From: Cliona cf. orientalis
Lineage: Eukaryota > Porifera > Demospongiae > Clionaida > Clionaidae
Assembly (NCBI GenBank): GCA_963930775.1
Contig: OZ005692.1
Location: 4,078,135 to 4,142,134, forward strand
Reading direction: 5' to 3'
DNA: 64,000 bases
Part shown: piece after piece, positions 6,867 through 50,393 of the stretch
Layout: each line of letters opens with the position of its first letter
Numbering within the stretch: the stretch's first letter is position 1
Position numbers and translations under genes: made by a program
Notes under the pieces: generated by a model
Databases searched by the model: none
Told to the model about the DNA's origin: nothing
What the model saw: the letters and a program-made list of their open reading frames with translations, nothing else

Positions 6867-7332
6867 GGAAAGCTGTAGCCTCGTCCCCAGGCCCTTCGAG
6901 GGGAGGAGGAGAAAGGGCCTGGTACACACCGTTTGCGCATGCGTCAACTTTTCCGTAAAAACGTCCGTAAAAGTTTACGTACACTAACCCCTACCACGTG
7001 CTGATAAGTGAAACGATCCATATGTCTACAGAATACGGAATGACCTCATGACCTTTGCACTAGCGCTCGTGCTAAACGCGCGCCTACTCGGATTGGAGTC
7101 GAGGCAGTCCTTCGTTGATCGATATGGCGAAGTCCCTTGAGCTTCCTCGAAGTCTCGCTCGAAACTCGAACCGTTTTAAGCTTGCCAAAGAAGTTAAGGT
7201 CAAAGGGCAAGTATACTAGGAAATATCCGATCCCCTAAGATTCTTAGGGTAACTGAGCATGCGCAAACAGTGTGTACCAGGCCCTTTCTCCTCCTCCCCT
7301 CAAAGGGCCTGGGGACGAGGCTAGGAAAGCTG
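6867..7332. mobile_element. MITE with 9-bp TSD, same family as the RecQ transposon
   Basis: The element proper is 6876-7323 (448 bp). It starts TAGCCTCGTCCCCAGGCCC and ends with the inverse complement of that type (GGGCCTGGGGACGAGGCTA). It is flanked by a perfect 9-bp duplication, GGAAAGCTG, at 6867-6875 and 7324-7332. Arms run about 70 bp and contain a purine-rich GAGGGGAGGAGGAG tract inside a small hairpin, then a CGCATGCG core. Same architecture as the elements at 19,462 and 44,267, but a distinct subfamily. Non-coding. Confidence 0.9.
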
Positions 7333-19452: not shown

Positions 19453-19975
19453 CAGAAGCTTTAGCCTCGTACCCAGGCTCTAGGGGGAGGGGAAAGGAGA
19501 GCCTGGTATCAGTTGCGTGCGCATGCGCTTAATTTCCCCAGATTCTGGGGAAAATCGGATATTTTCCGTATACTATCCGTGTACTTGACCTTTAACCCAG
19601 GCAAGCGTTCAGCAGAACTACGAGAAGGACCGAACAACGAAGGTTTTTCAGGCAACGAGTGGGCTGTGTTTGTGCTACAATGGCTTACTAAGCGTTCTTG
19701 GCCTCATTCGGTGTTTTTCACTGCTCGAAGGAGTAGGAGGTAAGCATTGATCTTGATAGACAGATGCCCAATGAGGCTTGCTTGAATTCGTAAACTACTC
19801 TGGACAACGCCATTGAATAAAATAGCTTCGCTGTCGAGATACAGCGGTCTTCAATTGTTGATTACGTAACTTTTGTTGTAGTCACGTGGCTTTAATTAAG
19901 CGCATGCGCACGCAACTGATACCAGGCTCTCCTTTCCCCTCCCCCTAGAGCCTGGGTACGAGGCTACAGAAGCTT
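19453..19975. mobile_element. MITE with 9-bp TSD, closest relative of the RecQ transposon
   Basis: Element 19,462-19,966 (505 bp). Ends TAGCCTCGTACCCAGGCTC and its inverse complement; perfect 9-bp duplication CAGAAGCTT at 19,453-19,461 and 19,967-19,975. The outer ~100 bp of each arm are nearly the same as those of the 5.75-kb element at 44,267: the G-rich tract, GAGCCTGGTATCA, TGCGTGCGCATGCGC and TTTCCCCAG. Non-coding internal deletion or capture derivative. Confidence 0.93.
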
Positions 19976-27600: not shown

Positions 27601-29949
27601 TCTAAAGAATGTCAGAATTGCTACCAGTCCTATTGAGAGGATCGATTCTTGTAAATGTCGTAAATGGTTTCGAGTACCAAAAAATGCACCTTTAGCAGAT
27701 AAATCTTGTGAAAGTGTAATGTGTTCGGCATGTAAGGAGCTACGTAAACGTTTATGTCAAGCATCCGAGCGCATTTCTCAGGCACCAACCAGCTCAAAAA
27801 TGAAGCACATCCAACCATCTTCACATTTCCCCCTCAAATACTTATCTTCTAATAGTCTAAAGGAACGGAGGACGAATACTCAAGCAGAATGCTCTCACAA
27901 TAAACGAGCATTAAGAAAGTACGAGCCACAAGATGTTGTACTTGACGATTCACAGCATGACGAGATGTGCCAGGTTGTATCAGCTTTGGAAAGCCATGGA
28001 CGTAGCGAGTTAGAGGGTGTTTTTGCAGAGGCCGACGCTCATGGAGTTGGCACAGATATTTGAAAGACATGGGAGAATGACAAGCACGATCTTAAAAAGC
28101 AGTTTCAGTCTGATCAACTCACCTTAGGTAATGATTGACTATGTCATACACATGTATATTAAATCATTAGTTTAATTAAGAGTATTATAATACAGAAACC
28201 GGGAACCGAGGTAACCAATGGAGCCCTATCACAATACGTATAGGTAGGCTAGCTATAAATTTTGACAATTTTATATACACATTCCTGTAATCATTCAATT
28301 AGCTCTAGCAGTGTACATACGTAGTCCTGCTGCCTACCAAGCATTAAAGAATTTGGAATCCTTAACCTTCCTTCCAAAGCCACCCTACAGAGATACACAG
28401 GTAATATTGGTTGATATAATTATTATGGACAATACATGTACATACAGTAAAATCTGTCTCTAGTTATCACCATGGGGCAAAAATCGGTGGTTATTAGCTA
28501 TAGATGTGACAAGGTATATAATGTTTGGGGTGCCACTGAATGGCTGTAGTGAGGAGGTGGCTGCCTTACACGGTGACCACTATACACAGGTTTGACCGCA
28601 CAACGACACAGTACACAAAATGAATTGTGAAATTTCCAGAACCCTTCATTCTCTCTCTCTCTCGAATGTGCATAGTTATTCAATGGGGATGTGTAAATAT
28701 TAATAATTATGTGCATGTAACAGGTGCGTTCTTATCTGGGCCTGGGGCAATGGAAGAGGCTATTTATAAGCAATCAAAGCTATATGGTGCATTCAAGGAA
28801 GAGCAACAACAGAAAGGATTGAAGCGAAAGTTGTATCAAGGCTAATGTGGAATTCCCGGAATCAGCAGATAATTGGTCTAGCAATGAGTCCAGAGGATAT
28901 GAGCTCTCTACACGATATCTACATGACGTATGATGAGGACACCAAGACCGAGCAGACTACCTATGTTCTGCAATTTTTGTGGAGAGATCTCACATCCAAA
29001 TTTGATATCGTTGGGCCATACTTCACTTCAAGTGGAAGTGTTAAGAGCAAATTTACCATTGCTTGTGTTTCTGAAACAATTAAATTGTTTCAGCTGTATG
29101 GGTTTGAAACCTCCGGTATAGTGTGCGATGGAGCGTCTACAAGCCTCACTACTATCTTCAGGCAGTCACTTCAGGCAGTCATCCTGATGCCTACGGTAGC
29201 GGCTCCATCCAGAGTGGTTATTCAGTGCCAGCACCATGCTTTGAAAATCCATTCAATCCTCCAAACCTCATCTACTGGATTGTATGCCCTAGTCATCAAG
29301 TAAACAAAATTAATTAGCAGCCTATAGTTCTTTACAATAATAATACATTTGCATATGTATTATTATAGCTGAAAAATATGATAAATGCCCTTTTTTCTTC
29401 TCGGAGTGGTGGCACTAAGAATTTTGAGTTTAACGGAACAGTATTTGGATGGAGAGCAATACAGGCAAGTCTATTCATTAGCATACTTACAGCAGCTGAA
29501 CTATATGTACCAACAGGACATGTATAAGAGAGAATGTGAAAAGATGGCAAAAGGATTGGCAAGAAGTGTACCAAAACTTAGAGAGATCCATGTCATTCGT
29601 GATTCTTGGACGAAGCTAAATGTAGCACCAGCCAAAATAATGCAGGTACAATTATTAGGCCATTAATTACTACTAATATGAATTATATTATCTATAATAG
29701 CAAGAGAATGTACTGACCGAGTTACAGTCTTACACGGTAGCTACTCGAAGCGCAAAATTTCCAGTACCGGTACCGTACGTTAGCCACAGCGTTTAATTAT
29801 AGAATGACACTGAATTATACCTCTTCCACTGATCCATAGCAACCAGTACCCAATTGTTTTCCAGTAGCTCTGCCTTGTACTGTAAATCTTGCGATGTCGC
29901 GGTTATTACACAGAGCTCGTAGACGCTGTCTCTGCTGTCGTTCAGCCAT
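24615..29949 (-). CDS. protein kinase (TKL-like) with C-terminal coiled coil; complete model
   Basis: Five minus-strand exons join in phase 0: 29,949-29,821 (start ATG), 26,666-26,100, 25,824-25,435, 25,330-25,247 and 24,791-24,615 (stop), giving 448 aa. Exon 1 holds a basic N-terminus and the glycine loop QLGTGCYGSVEE. Exon 2 holds the lysine (CAGKKIHD), MEKLDGNL hinge region, HRDLTAKNVLL, DLGNS (DFG replaced by DLG), YMPPEA and DIFSFGHLALFVGLQ. Exon 3 carries the end of the C-lobe (QRPTAEQLV) and starts a coiled coil (KDEQIQQLQLQLA) that continues in exon 4; exon 5 is a low-complexity tail. Key catalytic residues are present, so likely active, cytosolic (no TM or signal seen). Intron 1 is 3.15 kb because a P-like transposon is inserted 48 bp from exon 2. 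The exon 4-5 junction is the least certain. Confidence 0.85.
26986..29740 (+). pseudogene. P/THAP9-like transposase, multi-exon and broken
   Basis: Recognisable pieces in order: a Ser/Asn-rich N-part (26,986-27,246), a segment after an in-frame TAG (27,247-27,380), 27,449-27,517, a Cys-containing basic block (27,520-28,128) with another in-frame stop near 28,062, LPSKATLQRYT (28,330-28,401, frameshifted), and the RNase-H-fold-like core with VLQFLWRDLTS, FDIVGPYF and VCDGAS (28,723-29,150). Then come FENPFNP..WIVCPSHQ and KNMINALFSS (29,220-29,463), RDSWTKLNVAPAKIMQ (to 29,645) and QENVLTEL (29,701). At least two nonsense codons and three frameshifts are needed, so it cannot be functional. Assignment to the P/THAP9-type family rests on the order of CDGAS, the P-H-like CPSHQLKN box and LPSK; moderate confidence. 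Confidence 0.6.
28443..28598. mobile_element. small Tigger-like MITE nested in the P-like element
   Basis: TA then CAGTAAAATCTGTCTCTAG at the left; the right arm reads as the inverse of a GTCAAACCTGTGTATAGTGG-type end. Imperfect arms of about 45 bp. Borders tentative. Confidence 0.4.
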
Positions 29950-44060: not shown

Positions 44061-44510
44061 TACAGTCGAGCCTCCGAACAAAGGACACTTTGGGAACGGG
44101 CCTCTTGTCCTTTGTTCGGAGGTTGTCCCTATCTCGGAGGTTCATGATTTCTCAACCCATTTTGATTGTATTATCCTTAACAAGTTAGTAAATGCATGAA
44201 AAGAGCAGTAGAGATGATAATCAAGTGATTGGTATGTTCAGTTTTCAGTATCAACATATATAGCACTAGCCTCGTACCCAGGCTCAGAGGGGGGAGGGGG
44301 AAGGGAGAGCCTGGTATCAATTGCGTGCGCATGCGCATAATTTCCCCAGTTTCTGGGGAAACTTGTATTCTCATTGTTTTATGTCCGTATACTTTGACGT
44401 CACCATACGGTTACATAACGCGTATGACTCATGAACAGTGACGGGGGAAATGCTGACAACGCAAACACACAGAGCTCGAGGAGCCAGGGTGCGAGGCCGC
44501 GGTACTCTCG

Positions 44511-45929
44511 ATGGAGCTGGAGGACAACATATCTGACATAGTTTTTTCCCAAGCGATCGAATATGCTTTGAAGAAAGTGGGCTCTCCAGATTTGAAACTT
44601 AAACCTGAACAGCAATCAGCTATTCGAATCATATTAGGAGGAGGCGACGTTTTCATTTGGCTACCAACTGGATTCGGGAAATCTGTGTGTTTTGAATTGT
44701 TGCCGTTTGTGTATGATCATAAGCTGGAAAGAGTAGGGACCCAAACACGTAGCTTGGTATTGGTGCTGTCGCCTTTAATATCTCTGATGGTCAATCAAGT
44801 GACCAATTTGAAATTACGTGGAGTTAGCACGGCCATCATATCTGGCAGTGACAAAATCAGCAAGAATCTACAGGCTACCCAAAAGGATTTAAAAACCTGT
44901 AGTCTGTTATTTAGTGTTCCCGAGGCTGTACTCGGGCACAAATGGAGGGATTCCATTGAGAATCCAGATGTTGCTGACAGAATTGTGGCCATAGTTATAG
45001 ATGAGGCTCATTGTGTATCAAAATGGTAAGATTGTGCACTACCGTAATTTGACACAATTTAATATGCACCTACTTGTCATACATGCACATGCAGGAGTAA
45101 GGATTTTCGTTGTACCTATGGGAAAATTCATGAAATCCGAGCTCTTGTACCTCAAGGTGTACCTTTTATGGCCTGTACCGCAACTGTGACTAAGAGTGTT
45201 CGCGATGAAGTGATAACTTTACTAGATATGAAGGGGTGTGAGGTCGTGAGTACTTCGCCCGACAGGCCCAATATCTACTATGGAGTGAAACCTCGTACTG
45301 AAATAACATTGGATATGCTACCATTGCTCAACTCTCTGAAAGAGCATAAAAACAGTGCTCCACGTGTCATTGTGTATTGCCCTTCATTAAACATTTGTGC
45401 AGACCTTTACGCTACTTTCCATTTTGAGCTAGGACAAGATTCTTATCATCCACCGGGTGCTGAACAGATCAGCGACAACCGCCTATTTGGGATGTATCAT
45501 TCCAACACTCCACAATACAATAAAGAGGTTATATTAAAGAGTATGGATCAACCTGATGGAGTGGTACGAATTGTGTTTGCTACAATCGCTTTGGGCATGG
45601 GAGTAAACTTACGAGGAGTGAACACCATCATTCACTATGGTGCTCCCAGAAGCATAGATGATTACTTTCAGGAAAGCGGAAGGGGAGGAAGAACAGGAAA
45701 TTATGCAGAGTCTATTGTGTATTGGACACCATCGGATTGTCCACAAAGGAAAGATCCCAAATCCGTACGTGATTATGAAGTAAATGCAGTCAGGCGATAC
45801 CTTGAGAATGTAACTATGTGCCGTCGTCAGTGGTTACTGGACTATTTTGATCCTATCTGTGCAAAACCTGGGTTAGTGCCTTCAAAATGCTGTGATATTT
45901 GTGCCACCAAAACAACAGAGATGTTATAA
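44511..45929 (+). CDS. RecQ-family DEAH-box DNA helicase encoded by the transposon
   Basis: ATP-driven 3'-5' DNA helicase by family. Two exons, 44,511-45,025 and 45,095-45,929 (intron GTAAGA...GCAG), 449 aa. Motifs in order: LKPEQQSAI (motif 0), LPTGFGKS (Walker A), VLSPLISLM (Ia), VIDEAHCVSKW (II, DEAH), FMACTATVT (III), DRPNIYYGV, VIVYCPS (IV), FATIALGMGVN (V), YFQESGRGGRTG (VI). A RecQ zinc-binding domain follows (MCRRQW...PSKCCDIC). No HRDC or winged-helix tail, so shorter than BLM/WRN and close to the RECQ core. The start is the first in-frame ATG (MELEDNISDI), about 170 bp inside the left TIR. Could unwind hairpins or G-rich ends during transposition (inference). Intact. Confidence 0.92.
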
Positions 45930-45987
45930 AATAATTAATTTTATTTTTTTATCATTATGATAGGCATAGAGAAAAACACAAAAATAT

Positions 45988-47083
45988 TTAATTGTCTTCC
46001 ATTTCATCAAAATTTACCTCTGGCTCCATTACAGTTCCTTTATACTTGTAATAATCTTGCTTTTTAGATTCAATCCACTTCTCAGTCTTACTAAGATCCC
46101 AGTTCCACAGTGGGTTGGTCCTTAGGGTGGGATAGGAAGAGTGTTTTCTGCCTGGTTTGACCGATAAAATTTCTTGTTTTAGTACAGTTGATACAACCTT
46201 CGCCACATCCTGTTCAAGAGACTTGGTAGAATGGGAGTTGGAGATAGGTGGCACATTTGATTGTTGATCAAACTTAGCAATGACTGCCTGCAGAGTAGTA
46301 ACTGATCTGGCTGCTCTTTGAATGGCAGCTTCAGTGAAATTGGGACCTTGATTAGTGATAATGGATTTCACTAGCTTGTTTAAATGCTCGTTATGGAGAT
46401 CACATGGAATGTTATGTCCAAGTCCTCCGTGAGTATTGATGAACCGATTCCATGTGAGCTGATGGGCTAGATGTGGTGATAGTGTTGCTTGAATTTGAAA
46501 CTGCATTCTGAGAGCTTCAAGGGCATATTTCCTTCTATCAGCTACTTTAAAGTGTGGTAGGAGAAGACGCCAGCAACGAATCATTCTTTTCCCAGCAGCT
46601 TCACCCCAAGTATCCCTGACTTCCATTATCAAAGAACCATAATGGCATAAAATCCTAGCATAGTTGAACACTCCATCTTTTGTTTCCATTACACTGTCAC
46701 CAGTTAGAGCTCCCTCTATTAGAGTGCATTGATCAACTACCTGAGCTGCAATTGTTCGTAAGTAAGCGTACTGTTGAGCAATACTACTTTTGTCCAGACC
46801 AGGTGGGAGATTGATCTTCGAATCGAGCTTTGTCACTCCTAGAATTTGGCATGCTGCTGCAAGCATGTGCCCTTTCACAACTGTTAAAAGAAAGTCTACA
46901 GCGGCATTTACATCTTTCTTTGGATCTTTGGAGATGGATGTTCTGTTGAGCAAACTCTTAAAGTGCCCAAGGGTGCCATGATCACGAGATGATTGACTGT
47001 AGAGTGTTTTCCAAATCACCTAAAAATTGTAATTTCAAAATTTTAATGTTAATATCACACACACACAACATATATTATGCACG

Positions 47084-47128
<45 letters not shown>

Positions 47129-49793
47129 ATACACATACAAATACACATACACATACACACACATACATACACTTACACATACACATGCATACACATAACA
47201 CACACATACACATACACATAATTTATAGTTATCTGACAGTATAATTGCGTATACTACATACACACATGTACACATACACATGCATACACATACACATACA
47301 CATGCATTTGTTGGTAGTTGCTTAGCAACCAAAGTTTTTATAGGCATTTTGCCGGCTATGGGAAGGGGGTGGGTCATCATAAAGTAGACCATTGATGAAC
47401 AGAGGTCAACTACCACCAAAATAGTTATCTGCCAGTAATTGGGGTGCATTGGACCATGCATCTCATGCACCCCAATTACTGGCAGATAACTATTATATGC
47501 ATGTACATACACATACACATAATCTATAGTTATCTGACAGTATGATTACGTATACATGTACATACACACATGTACACACATACACATGCATACACATACA
47601 CAACAAACATATAACACTCATGTACACACACACACTATTAGTCTAAGACTAGGTATCCATGGAAACGAGAACAGGATGTAGGGTGGTCCCCTCCCTCTCC
47701 CAACAGCATGCTAAATTACCATAGCAACCAGAGTTACAAAGTAAACTTACACACAGTATGCACAGTTGAAAGTGCCAGTCTGCAGACTGTGGTTCCAGCA
47801 GTTGAAGTCTTTCCCGTGGTGTGTTGCCATCCATTAAGTGTCGCTGAGAGCCAATTTGTCGTTCACAAGTCACTAAGTCACCAACAGATAGCACTCGTCC
47901 ATCCTCTGGGAAATCCTTACCCAAGCAATCTTGCATAAAGTTCATAATATCAATCATGTCTGAGTGTCTATTCTCATCTTTCAGGAGCACTTCAATTACA
48001 GCATCTTCTGACTTCATTGCCATTTCTTTGGAGTACTCATGGGGTATGTGTGCAGGTACACATTTAGAAAATGGAGTGAGGTCACGAAAGAACCTAGTCA
48101 GAAGCCGACAAACAAGGATGACTAGATTTTGCTTCACGTGCAATATATCGTCGTGACTTGGAAGGAAGGATTTCCACGGAATGTGACGTAGATCAGCAAC
48201 CACACCAGTTTTGGGTAGGTCTGAAGACACACGACTCTTGGCAACAAGAATACTATACATGTTGACCATTTCTGACTGATTGTCGGAACGCTCATCTCGT
48301 ACCTTTTTTTTCTTGTTTACATTATCACCAACGAATTGAAATATTATTCCATCTTCGATCCATTTTCTGATTGGAATTTGGTGCAACCTGCTGATTTGAT
48401 CCACTAATCGAAGTGTAGCTGGATAGCTCATACAAATATTCACATGATTTAGCCTGGTGTAGATCTGCAGGATACAATACACAATGTCCAATGACTCACA
48501 TTCACATGCATGTGCAGTATTATTATCGATTTACTTGTTTGTCAACACGAGCTGCAAACAGTAACAAAGATATGATACTCTGAATCCCTGTCATATGCAT
48601 GTTTCTCTCCTTCAGCAATAATGCAACTGCCATGCCAATCCCAGGATTATGAGATGGGCCTGTCTTGAATTTGTTACGCTGGTCATTTTGGGAACAGATT
48701 GAAGACACAATACCAAACAACAGTGGTGCCTTCTCCTTCAGCTCATCAATGAACCATGACCAGTTAAACTGTGGCAGTGCTGACAAGGTGATACACTTGA
48801 AAGCTGATGGGGTTTCCCTTGATTGGCACAAATTACTGCACTCAGCATTGATTTTGCTTAAGAAACCTGAAAAGACCACCTCCTGGAGAGTACCATTTTC
48901 CATGATCGCATTTGCAATGGAGGGAGTATGTCCCATTGCAAGTGCATAGGCTACATTATATTCCTCATCACAAGCACTAACTACCCTCTGTAGCCGAGCA
49001 GGTTGAGAGGGTTCTGATACTGAGATCTGAAAGATCAAAATCCTGGTGAGTATAAGATCTACAATGATGAATAAACAACTTACAGTAACCGATCTGTGTG
49101 TACTGCTTGAGGTAGGTGGATGGTGGATAGTACTGTCGATGGCTAAAGCATGGTATGCACAGTATTATGTAAAGATTCATCCATATGCCGTCTATAATTC
49201 AGACTATTACCTTGTAGTGGTAAGGGATCTGATACAGTCAGCAAAGTTGGAGGTAGTTCACAGTTTAGGAGTGTGCTCAAATCAGACAGGGGTTGACGCA
49301 CAATTGGAGTAGTGTGGGCTGATTGCACAGGCATACTAGCCTTAGTTATGGGTTCTAACAGTGCAGTGGATTATTTAAACAGGATCATGTTAATTTTTAT
49401 TTAAACAACCATACCATTCCCAAACTCCAGTCGTCGGATAGATAATCTCTTTGTCCGAGGTCGTGCTCGAGCCGTGTCAGGAGACACTCCTACAGATCCA
49501 CTCGTTTCTTTCGTACGTTTAGGCGGCCTTTTTGATAGAGAGGTAGCGGCATCTCGGGCTTGCCTTTGAAAATCAACTAGGTCTATGGCTGCTCGCTCCA
49601 AGACCTCCAAACGCTTCTTACATACAGAGCAGATATGCTGGGGTAGACCATCATCAGTTGATACACTCACTTCCAAGAGATCTTGGATTCTCGAAGGCCA
49701 CTTGTTACGGATACTTGATGCGGTAAATAGAGACACATACTGGTGACTAGAAATCACCGAGCAGCACAGGCGACATGTGCGTCCAGAAGACAT
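45988..49793 (-). CDS. ZAD-like zinc finger + DUF6589-like protein, candidate transposase
   Basis: Five minus-strand exons with consistent phases: 49,793-49,415; 49,354-49,211; 49,019-48,535; 48,464-47,751; 47,019-45,988; 917 aa. Exon 1 starts MSSGRTCRLCC and has a ZAD-like C-x2-C ... C-x2-C pattern (CRLC, CSVC), a probable DNA-binding or dimerisation module, then a basic linker. Exons 3-5 form the DUF6589-like region: FNWSWFIDELKEKAP, QFVGDNVNKKKK, SVGDLVTCERQIG, TPRERLQLLEPQSADWH, RDHGTLGHF, and late GGLGHNIPCDLHNEHLNK. I infer an RNase-H-like transposase, with Asp in GDNV, Asp in VGDL and Glu in NEHLNK as possible catalytic residues; unproven. Intron 4 holds CA-repeats and a hairpin repeat. 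Exon 1-2 borders are the least certain. Confidence 0.8.
47060..47300. repeat. (CA)n / CATACA microsatellite
   Basis: Long CA and ACATAC runs in intron 4 of the DUF6589-like gene, resuming at 47,560-47,635. Apparent ORFs across it are low-complexity artefacts. Confidence 0.9.
47308..47497 (+). repeat. hairpin-ended repeat, copy 2
   Basis: Second copy of the 19,187 repeat, ending in the hairpin arm AGTTATCTGCCAGTAATTGG and its inverse. It is bracketed by two short sequences ATAGTTATCTGACAGTAT (47,224 and 47,525), which also contain the arm start. Confidence 0.7.
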
Positions 49794-50393
49794 AGCGCCA
49801 AGTACGCGGGTACGCACACGCCATCGAGTGCATGCTAGCGAGAGCGCGGCGCTAACAATAATGACGTTGCATGCCGCATGTAGGTACACAAATGACGCAA
49901 GTATGACCGCGCCCACGAAAGACACGTGGTATGGGAGGACATAATTAAGCGCATGCGCACGCAATTGATACCAGGCTCTCCCTTCCCCCTCCCCCCTCTG
50001 AGCCTGGGTACGAGGCTAATATAGCACAGACTGAATTTTTTTGTTTCTGAAGTACTGGCTACTCCAAATCGTTGTCTGGATTCAAGGCTAATATTATTAT
50101 CGCGCATGCGGCATAATATCGCGACCGCCTAGATTGCGGCAAAGGTGGGCGTGGCATCGTTAATTTAAGGGCGTGGTTTCCGGATGTCCGCTATTTAGAG
50201 GCTGTTTTGCACAATTTGAAAAGTCACGTTGGGAGCTTGGATCTTGTTCGCTGTCCGGAATCGAGAAGCGTCCGTATCTCGGAGGTTGCTAATATACTAT
50301 AACTATGCTAAATTCAATCGGTAACACGGCACTTGTCCGCTGTAGAGAGGTTGTCCGCTTCTCGGAGGGTCCGTTATCGGAGGCTCGACTGTA

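Follow-up and report, generated by a model that had tools for sequence, protein, structure and literature searches.

A RecQ-carrying DNA transposon with a ZAD-DUF6589 gene in the sponge Cliona cf. orientalis, most likely a new AcademH family

Results

An element with inverted termini and two convergent genes

We analysed a window of 64,000 nucleotides from the sponge Cliona cf. orientalis (contig OZ005692.1, positions 4,078,135 to 4,142,134 of the forward strand; unprefixed coordinates below are positions in this window). Within it lies an element of 5,752 bp (44267-50018) that carries two convergent, spliced genes, one for a RecQ helicase on the plus strand and one for a ZAD-DUF6589 protein on the minus strand. 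An inverted-repeat search delineated two terminal inverted repeats (TIRs) of 76 nt each that are complementary at 99%. The left TIR (44267..44342, plus strand) starts with TAGCCTCGTACCCAGGC, and the right TIR occupies 49943..50018 on the minus strand. Directly outside them stand two exact 9-bp copies of ATATAGCAC (44258..44266 and 50019..50027), the target-site duplication (TSD), for which a paralogous empty site was found. The inverted termini, the perfect 9-bp duplication and the two convergent genes that the original prediction, made from the DNA letters, had placed at 44258..50027 are all present there.

The ends follow the pattern TAGCCT-N-G-NN-CCCAGGC, in which GCCT and AGGC form an inverted pair that is retained in the families we read, C7 excepted. 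Because the ends hold this inverted GCCT..AGGC, a small hairpin is possible at each terminus.

When seven frames of the window element were scanned with Pfam, only DEAD, ResIII, Helicase_C, RecQ_Zn_bind, DUF6589 and zf-AD rose above the cut-off. The scan was limited to the window copy, and in its seven frames it revealed no further transposase domain, whether hAT, P, MULE or another, and no nuclease domain.

The RecQ helicase gene consists of two exons. Exon 1 (44511..45025, plus strand) has a Pfam match to the DEAD domain and ends at a GT donor at 45026, while exon 2 (45095..45929, plus strand) encodes Helicase_C and the RecQ zinc-binding domain, begins after an AG acceptor at 45093-45094 and ends with a stop codon at 45927-45929. 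The GT-AG intron between them measures 69 bp and joins ..SKW to SKDFR; like the donor and acceptor, this junction was read by eye. All three Pfam matches lie above their cut-offs (PF00270, E 1.4e-18; PF00271, E 2.4e-14; PF16124, E 2.6e-6), which bears out the predicted RecQ protein with its zinc domain. The NCBIfam model recQ_fam also matches the two exons (E 2.3e-24 and 9.4e-46), each under the curated whole-protein score because the exons were scanned separately. The best solved relative of exon 2 is WRN (E 4.5e-32).

The second gene, on the minus strand, comprises some five exons; a ZAD zinc domain lies at its start and DUF6589 at its end. Its first exon (49415..49793) carries the ZAD (zf-AD), opens with an ATG at 49793 and has a predicted 3' junction. 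It is followed by a predicted linker exon (49211..49354) with more than one in-frame solution at both junctions, and by the exon upstream of the Pfam domain (48535..49026), whose 5' splice junction is ambiguous. DUF6589 itself is spread over the next exon (47751..48464; model positions 9-153), with its GDNV, VGDL and ADWH blocks, and the last exon (45988..47019; model positions 155-410), which contains CDLHNEHLNK. Trying the possible splice sites left a single in-frame GT-AG solution for two of the four introns and several for the two upstream ones. The Pfam matches are to PF20231 (E 2.1e-34 and 4.4e-10 on two exons) and to zf-AD, PF07776 (E 9.5e-9); an NCBIfam scan of the DUF6589 exons gave no match, and no DUF6589 relative was found in the viral contig or genome contig collections searched. 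The last intron (47020..47750, minus strand) contains a perfect palindrome with 30-bp arms (47420-47449 / 47465-47494) that are separated by a spacer of 15 bp. This palindrome (47420-47494 overall) is adjoined by CA-rich repeats, which also belong to the intron, and by a 51-bp repeat pair.

Empty sites and sister copies demonstrate movement

The element is inserted in an unrelated host repeat (about 564 bp, inverted ends TACAGTCGAGCCTCCGA), whose two parts form its flanks (44061-44266 and 50028-50393). A genome search with the joined flanks, in which scoring covered the 40 best of 550 candidates, yielded 42 matches; of these, 40 are uninserted and near full length, with 92-97% identity. In the eight uninserted copies that we aligned, the site is single and uninterrupted: it reads CAACATAGCAC (CAGCATAGCAC in L082), and the filled site reads CAACATATATAGCAC. 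The right junction agrees. A sister copy on C1, with 99.2% identity across 5,757 aligned bases, is bounded by its own 9-bp duplication, GTTTATATC. The C9 copy (L022), at 95.7-95.8% identity and with a large internal deletion, has the duplication GACACATAC.

The 19-bp terminus, searched with at most two mismatches, gave 1,863 + 1,855 matches in the genome (3,718 in total) versus 0 + 0 for a reversed-pattern control. The window element is a real mobile DNA transposon, as the empty sites, the duplications of the sister copies and the genome-wide termini demonstrate; the original prediction of a DNA transposon bounded by TIRs thus holds. No other known transposase was seen between these TIRs in the sequences read, although no survey of all 3,718 ends was made for one.

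The host repeat is itself young, abundant and non-autonomous, with at least 40 near full-length copies. In the C1 sister copy (L021:1880-2757 and 4151) the reading frame is altered in two DUF6589 exons, and K replaces the E that is otherwise conserved in the EH block.

Short relatives and target duplications

Grouping 41 terminus matches gave 24 elements. Reading 22 of these, together with a 448-bp element in the window, provided 23 elements in which TSDs were assessed, and 18 have an exact 9-bp and two an exact 10-bp duplication. The other three are L039, with a 9-bp duplication containing one mismatch, L038, with none, and L035, which was not resolved. The 20 exact duplications display a weak symmetric preference: 15 start with a purine and 18 end with a pyrimidine.

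Short elements of 411-507 bp account for 19 of those read, and two of them are non-autonomous relatives within the window. One, of 505 bp (19462..19966), has the same 19-bp termini, the 9-bp TSD CAGAAGCTT and ends 91-92% like those of the full element. The other, of 448 bp (6876..7323), has the termini TAGCCTCGTCCCCAGGCC, with two mismatches to the 19-bp end, and the 9-bp TSD GGAAAGCTG. Blastn did not match this 448-bp relative to the full element, so the relative probably belongs to another family. L038 (C1:14309881-14310386), the short element without a TSD, is located immediately next to a ZAD exon (C1:14310552) that belongs to a RecQ-DUF6589 locus, and is perhaps a nested or rearranged insertion.

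RecQ and DUF6589 travel as one unit

Across the genome, 137 RecQ matches merged into 117 loci and 130 DUF6589 matches into 105, and loci within 4 kb of each other were counted as pairs. By this measure 93 of the 117 RecQ loci and 93 of the 105 DUF6589 loci are paired, with gaps of 38-1,644 bp. The orientation is convergent, tail to tail, in 93 of 93 pairs, and RecQ is a regular partner of DUF6589, as had been proposed. Among the 24 unpaired RecQ loci, some resemble host RecQ genes (long frames, ~30% identity). RecQ and DUF6589 identities correlate with r = 0.94 over 30 loci, a set from which six duplicate loci had been removed beforehand and in which a few near-identical loci were kept (p <= 0.0002; none of 5,000 permutations was as high). 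Even the C16 DUF6589 locus, which is ~24% identical and was found with the Pfam profile only, has a convergent RecQ. The two genes form one unit with a long-term partnership through deep divergence.

Four more distant families likewise have related TIRs and TSDs of their own. The scan of these families required a TIR and a TSD together and thus favoured concordant cases; for L071 and L072 the TIRs emerged even when this condition was dropped. In L071, whose last DUF6589 exon is 57% identical, the inverted repeat measures 73 nt, has the end TAGCCTGGAACCCAGGC and comes with a 9-bp TSD. In L072 (44-46% in the same exon) it measures 67 nt, has the end TAGCCTCGTCCCCAGGC and comes with a 10-bp TSD. 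The first, narrower stretches around the C7 and C16 elements yielded nothing, and their ends came from wider stretches: the C7 element (~30-32% identity) has TAGTCTCG ends with weaker pairing and a 9-bp TSD, and the C16 element has the ends TAGCCTCGTCCCCAGGCC and an 8-bp TSD.

Conserved acidic residues in the DUF6589 protein

To describe conservation in the DUF6589 protein we number residues by window exon and count the rows that have a letter in the column, out of 57 and 60 fragments, 36 and 32 of them non-redundant. In the non-redundant fragments, D69-N70 of the GDN block is present in 18/18, D218 of the GD block in 19/19 and D251 of DWH in 18/18; D207 and E211, the latter from the EH of CDLxxEH, are each present in 19/19. 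Over all rows the counts are 35/35 for D69-N70, 36/36 for D218, 35/35 for D251, 36/36 for D207 and 34/36 for E211. Both E211 exceptions are K and come from a single C1 sister copy that was read twice. With these conserved DN, GD and D..EH blocks, and as the sole such domain in the scanned frames, the DUF6589 protein appears to be the best transposase candidate of the element. Its last exon is under purifying selection among nine loci, whose 36 pairs gave proportions of synonymous differences (pS) of 0.76-0.92, which are saturated, and of nonsynonymous differences (pN) of 0.18-0.42.

We also considered whether a P-type transposase nearby is the true enzyme and rejected this, as 0 of 118 PF21787 matches lie inside the window element. 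By eye, at least two PF21787 matches fall within 5 kb of other RecQ-DUF6589 pairs (C1:21670238 and C1:29970699), and one (C1:32268981) is near an unpaired DUF6589 locus. Elsewhere in the window there is a weak PF21787 match at ~28839-29153 (C4:4106973-4107287; E 9.5e-4).

The ZAD domain is found in RecQ-DUF6589 elements

The ZAD is the N-terminal domain of the ZAD zinc-finger transcription factors of insects and vertebrates. The zf-AD profile matched the sponge genome 27 times at E <= 0.001, and 25 of these matches exceed the family cut-off (each of the 40 candidates was scored). Twenty-three are on the same strand as a RecQ-paired DUF6589 and 1.4-3.1 kb upstream of it, and one more is in the C9 copy (L022). 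At the other three loci, a TIR end precedes the ZAD-exon match by 214-254 bp and pieces of a DUF6589 gene follow it. In this one genome, searched with one profile in six frames ignoring introns, 27 of 27 ZAD matches are thus within RecQ-DUF6589 elements. The zf-AD profile found no ZAD at the more diverged RecQ-DUF6589 pairs, where the domain may be absent or its likeness may have faded.

As every ZAD detected in this genome is in such an element, the ZAD may be an old transposase domain. This raises a transposon origin for the domain: it could have started out in RecQ-carrying DUF6589 transposases, serving there in DNA binding or dimerisation, and later have been captured by host genes, a scenario that we put forward tentatively and consider rather unlikely as it stands. 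No statement on a transposon origin of the ZAD was seen in the literature listings consulted or in the retrieved passages of PMC10547256 and PMC7655104.

Discussion

The element is very probably an autonomous-type cut-and-paste transposon of the AcademH lineage, in which the ZAD-DUF6589 protein would act as the transposase with RecQ working alongside. In the mechanism we propose, the N-terminal ZAD and the region that follows it would bind the TAGCCTCG..CCCAGGC ends, and a putative D/D/E site, drawn from the GDN, GD and D..EH blocks, would cut the ends of the element. The cut ends would then be joined to the target strands at positions staggered by 9 (in some cases 10) bases, and filling of the gaps would give rise to the target duplication. 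The element's own RecQ core helicase would act alongside, probably by unwinding either the ends or the gapped target at the stage of excision, strand transfer or repair.

Several observations weigh against parts of this account. The proposed catalytic E is a K in the C1 sister copy, whose frame is also broken. Moreover, D191 and D251 of one exon, as well as D115, D207 and D271 of the last exon, are conserved without exception, and E186 has a single one. Because D191, D115 and D271 are exceptionless and E186 is nearly so, the choice of D, D and E rests on analogy. The claim that the DUF6589 protein is the transposase therefore stands in part: it is the best candidate and has conserved Asp/Asp/Glu positions, but other acidic residues are equally conserved. 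Its identity with the Academ transposase is unproved, the placement having been made by published description. At 12 of the 105 DUF6589 loci RecQ is absent within 4 kb, and the duplication of the diverged C16 copy is only 8 bp long. Finally, four bases of the filled site are missing from the empty-site paralogues, so the insertion must have hit a variant copy with four extra bases.

Other explanations fare less well. Two neighbouring host genes between chance inverted repeats, with no transposon involved, have virtually no chance of accounting for the locus; we found no point in support of this and rejected it, as it is already refuted by the empty sites, the TSDs of the sister copies, the thousands of termini and the 93 convergent pairs. 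It is also very improbable that the element is KolobokH-like, belonging to the Kolobok superfamily with a RecQ. Kolobok elements duplicate TTAA, whereas the TSDs found here are 9-10 bp long and varied in sequence. What speaks for such a relationship is that KolobokH carries a RecQ helicase and, in the same excerpt, that one red-alga Kolobok has its RecQ on the complementary strand (PMC9587614), because of which gene layout alone cannot exclude Kolobok.

The original prediction had suggested an undescribed superfamily. In this explanation the element would stand apart from Academ, and an undescribed DUF6589 transposase would have gained RecQ independently of AcademH and KolobokH. In keeping with this, the name DUF6589 is absent from the literature searched, and a sequence search of solved structures found no relative of the last DUF6589 exon, which in Pfam matches only DUF6589 itself above chance. 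However, a RecQ helicase is listed for Academ, after Kapitonov et al., in the part of PMC3627910 consulted, and AcademH is described in an excerpt of PMC10045372 as encoding a helicase and having TSDs of 9 or 10 bp. Since this combination already describes AcademH, two lineages sharing both odd traits would be a coincidence, and we judge a separate superfamily improbable. With both traits in print, the proposal of an undescribed superfamily is unsupported, and a RecQ inside an Academ transposon is already known rather than new. The pairing itself offers an opening: as helicase and transposase candidate have been kept together through deep divergence, a role of the helicase in transposition becomes testable.

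When the known systems are compared, the window element is most likely a new AcademH family. The AcademH paper (Kojima, Mob DNA 2020;11:15) reportedly deals, by its title, with helicase-encoding transposons of animals and fungi. AcademH, which we know from citing papers, and the window element have in common a RecQ-type helicase and TSDs of 9 or 10 bp: the SF2/RecQ helicase is present in the window element, and the duplication length recurs in its family (n = 23 elements). AcademH helicases in fungi are cited in a passage of PMC10799480. AcademX, of the same superfamily, has TSDs of 3 or 4 bp and encodes a nuclease instead of a helicase (PMC10045372, in excerpt), whereas the window element has TSDs of 9-10 bp and no nuclease domain in its seven frames, and on these grounds we rejected AcademX. 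A genome search with XPG_I gave four matches, none of them at the 93 RecQ-DUF6589 pairs. KolobokH shares the RecQ, but unlike the window element it has this helicase downstream of its transposase domain and a TTAA duplication. The transposase candidate itself belongs to Pfam PF20231 (DUF6589), which is annotated only as a family of unknown function. This unnamed family is now tied to a RecQ-carrying transposon lineage and can thus be annotated as a probable transposase.

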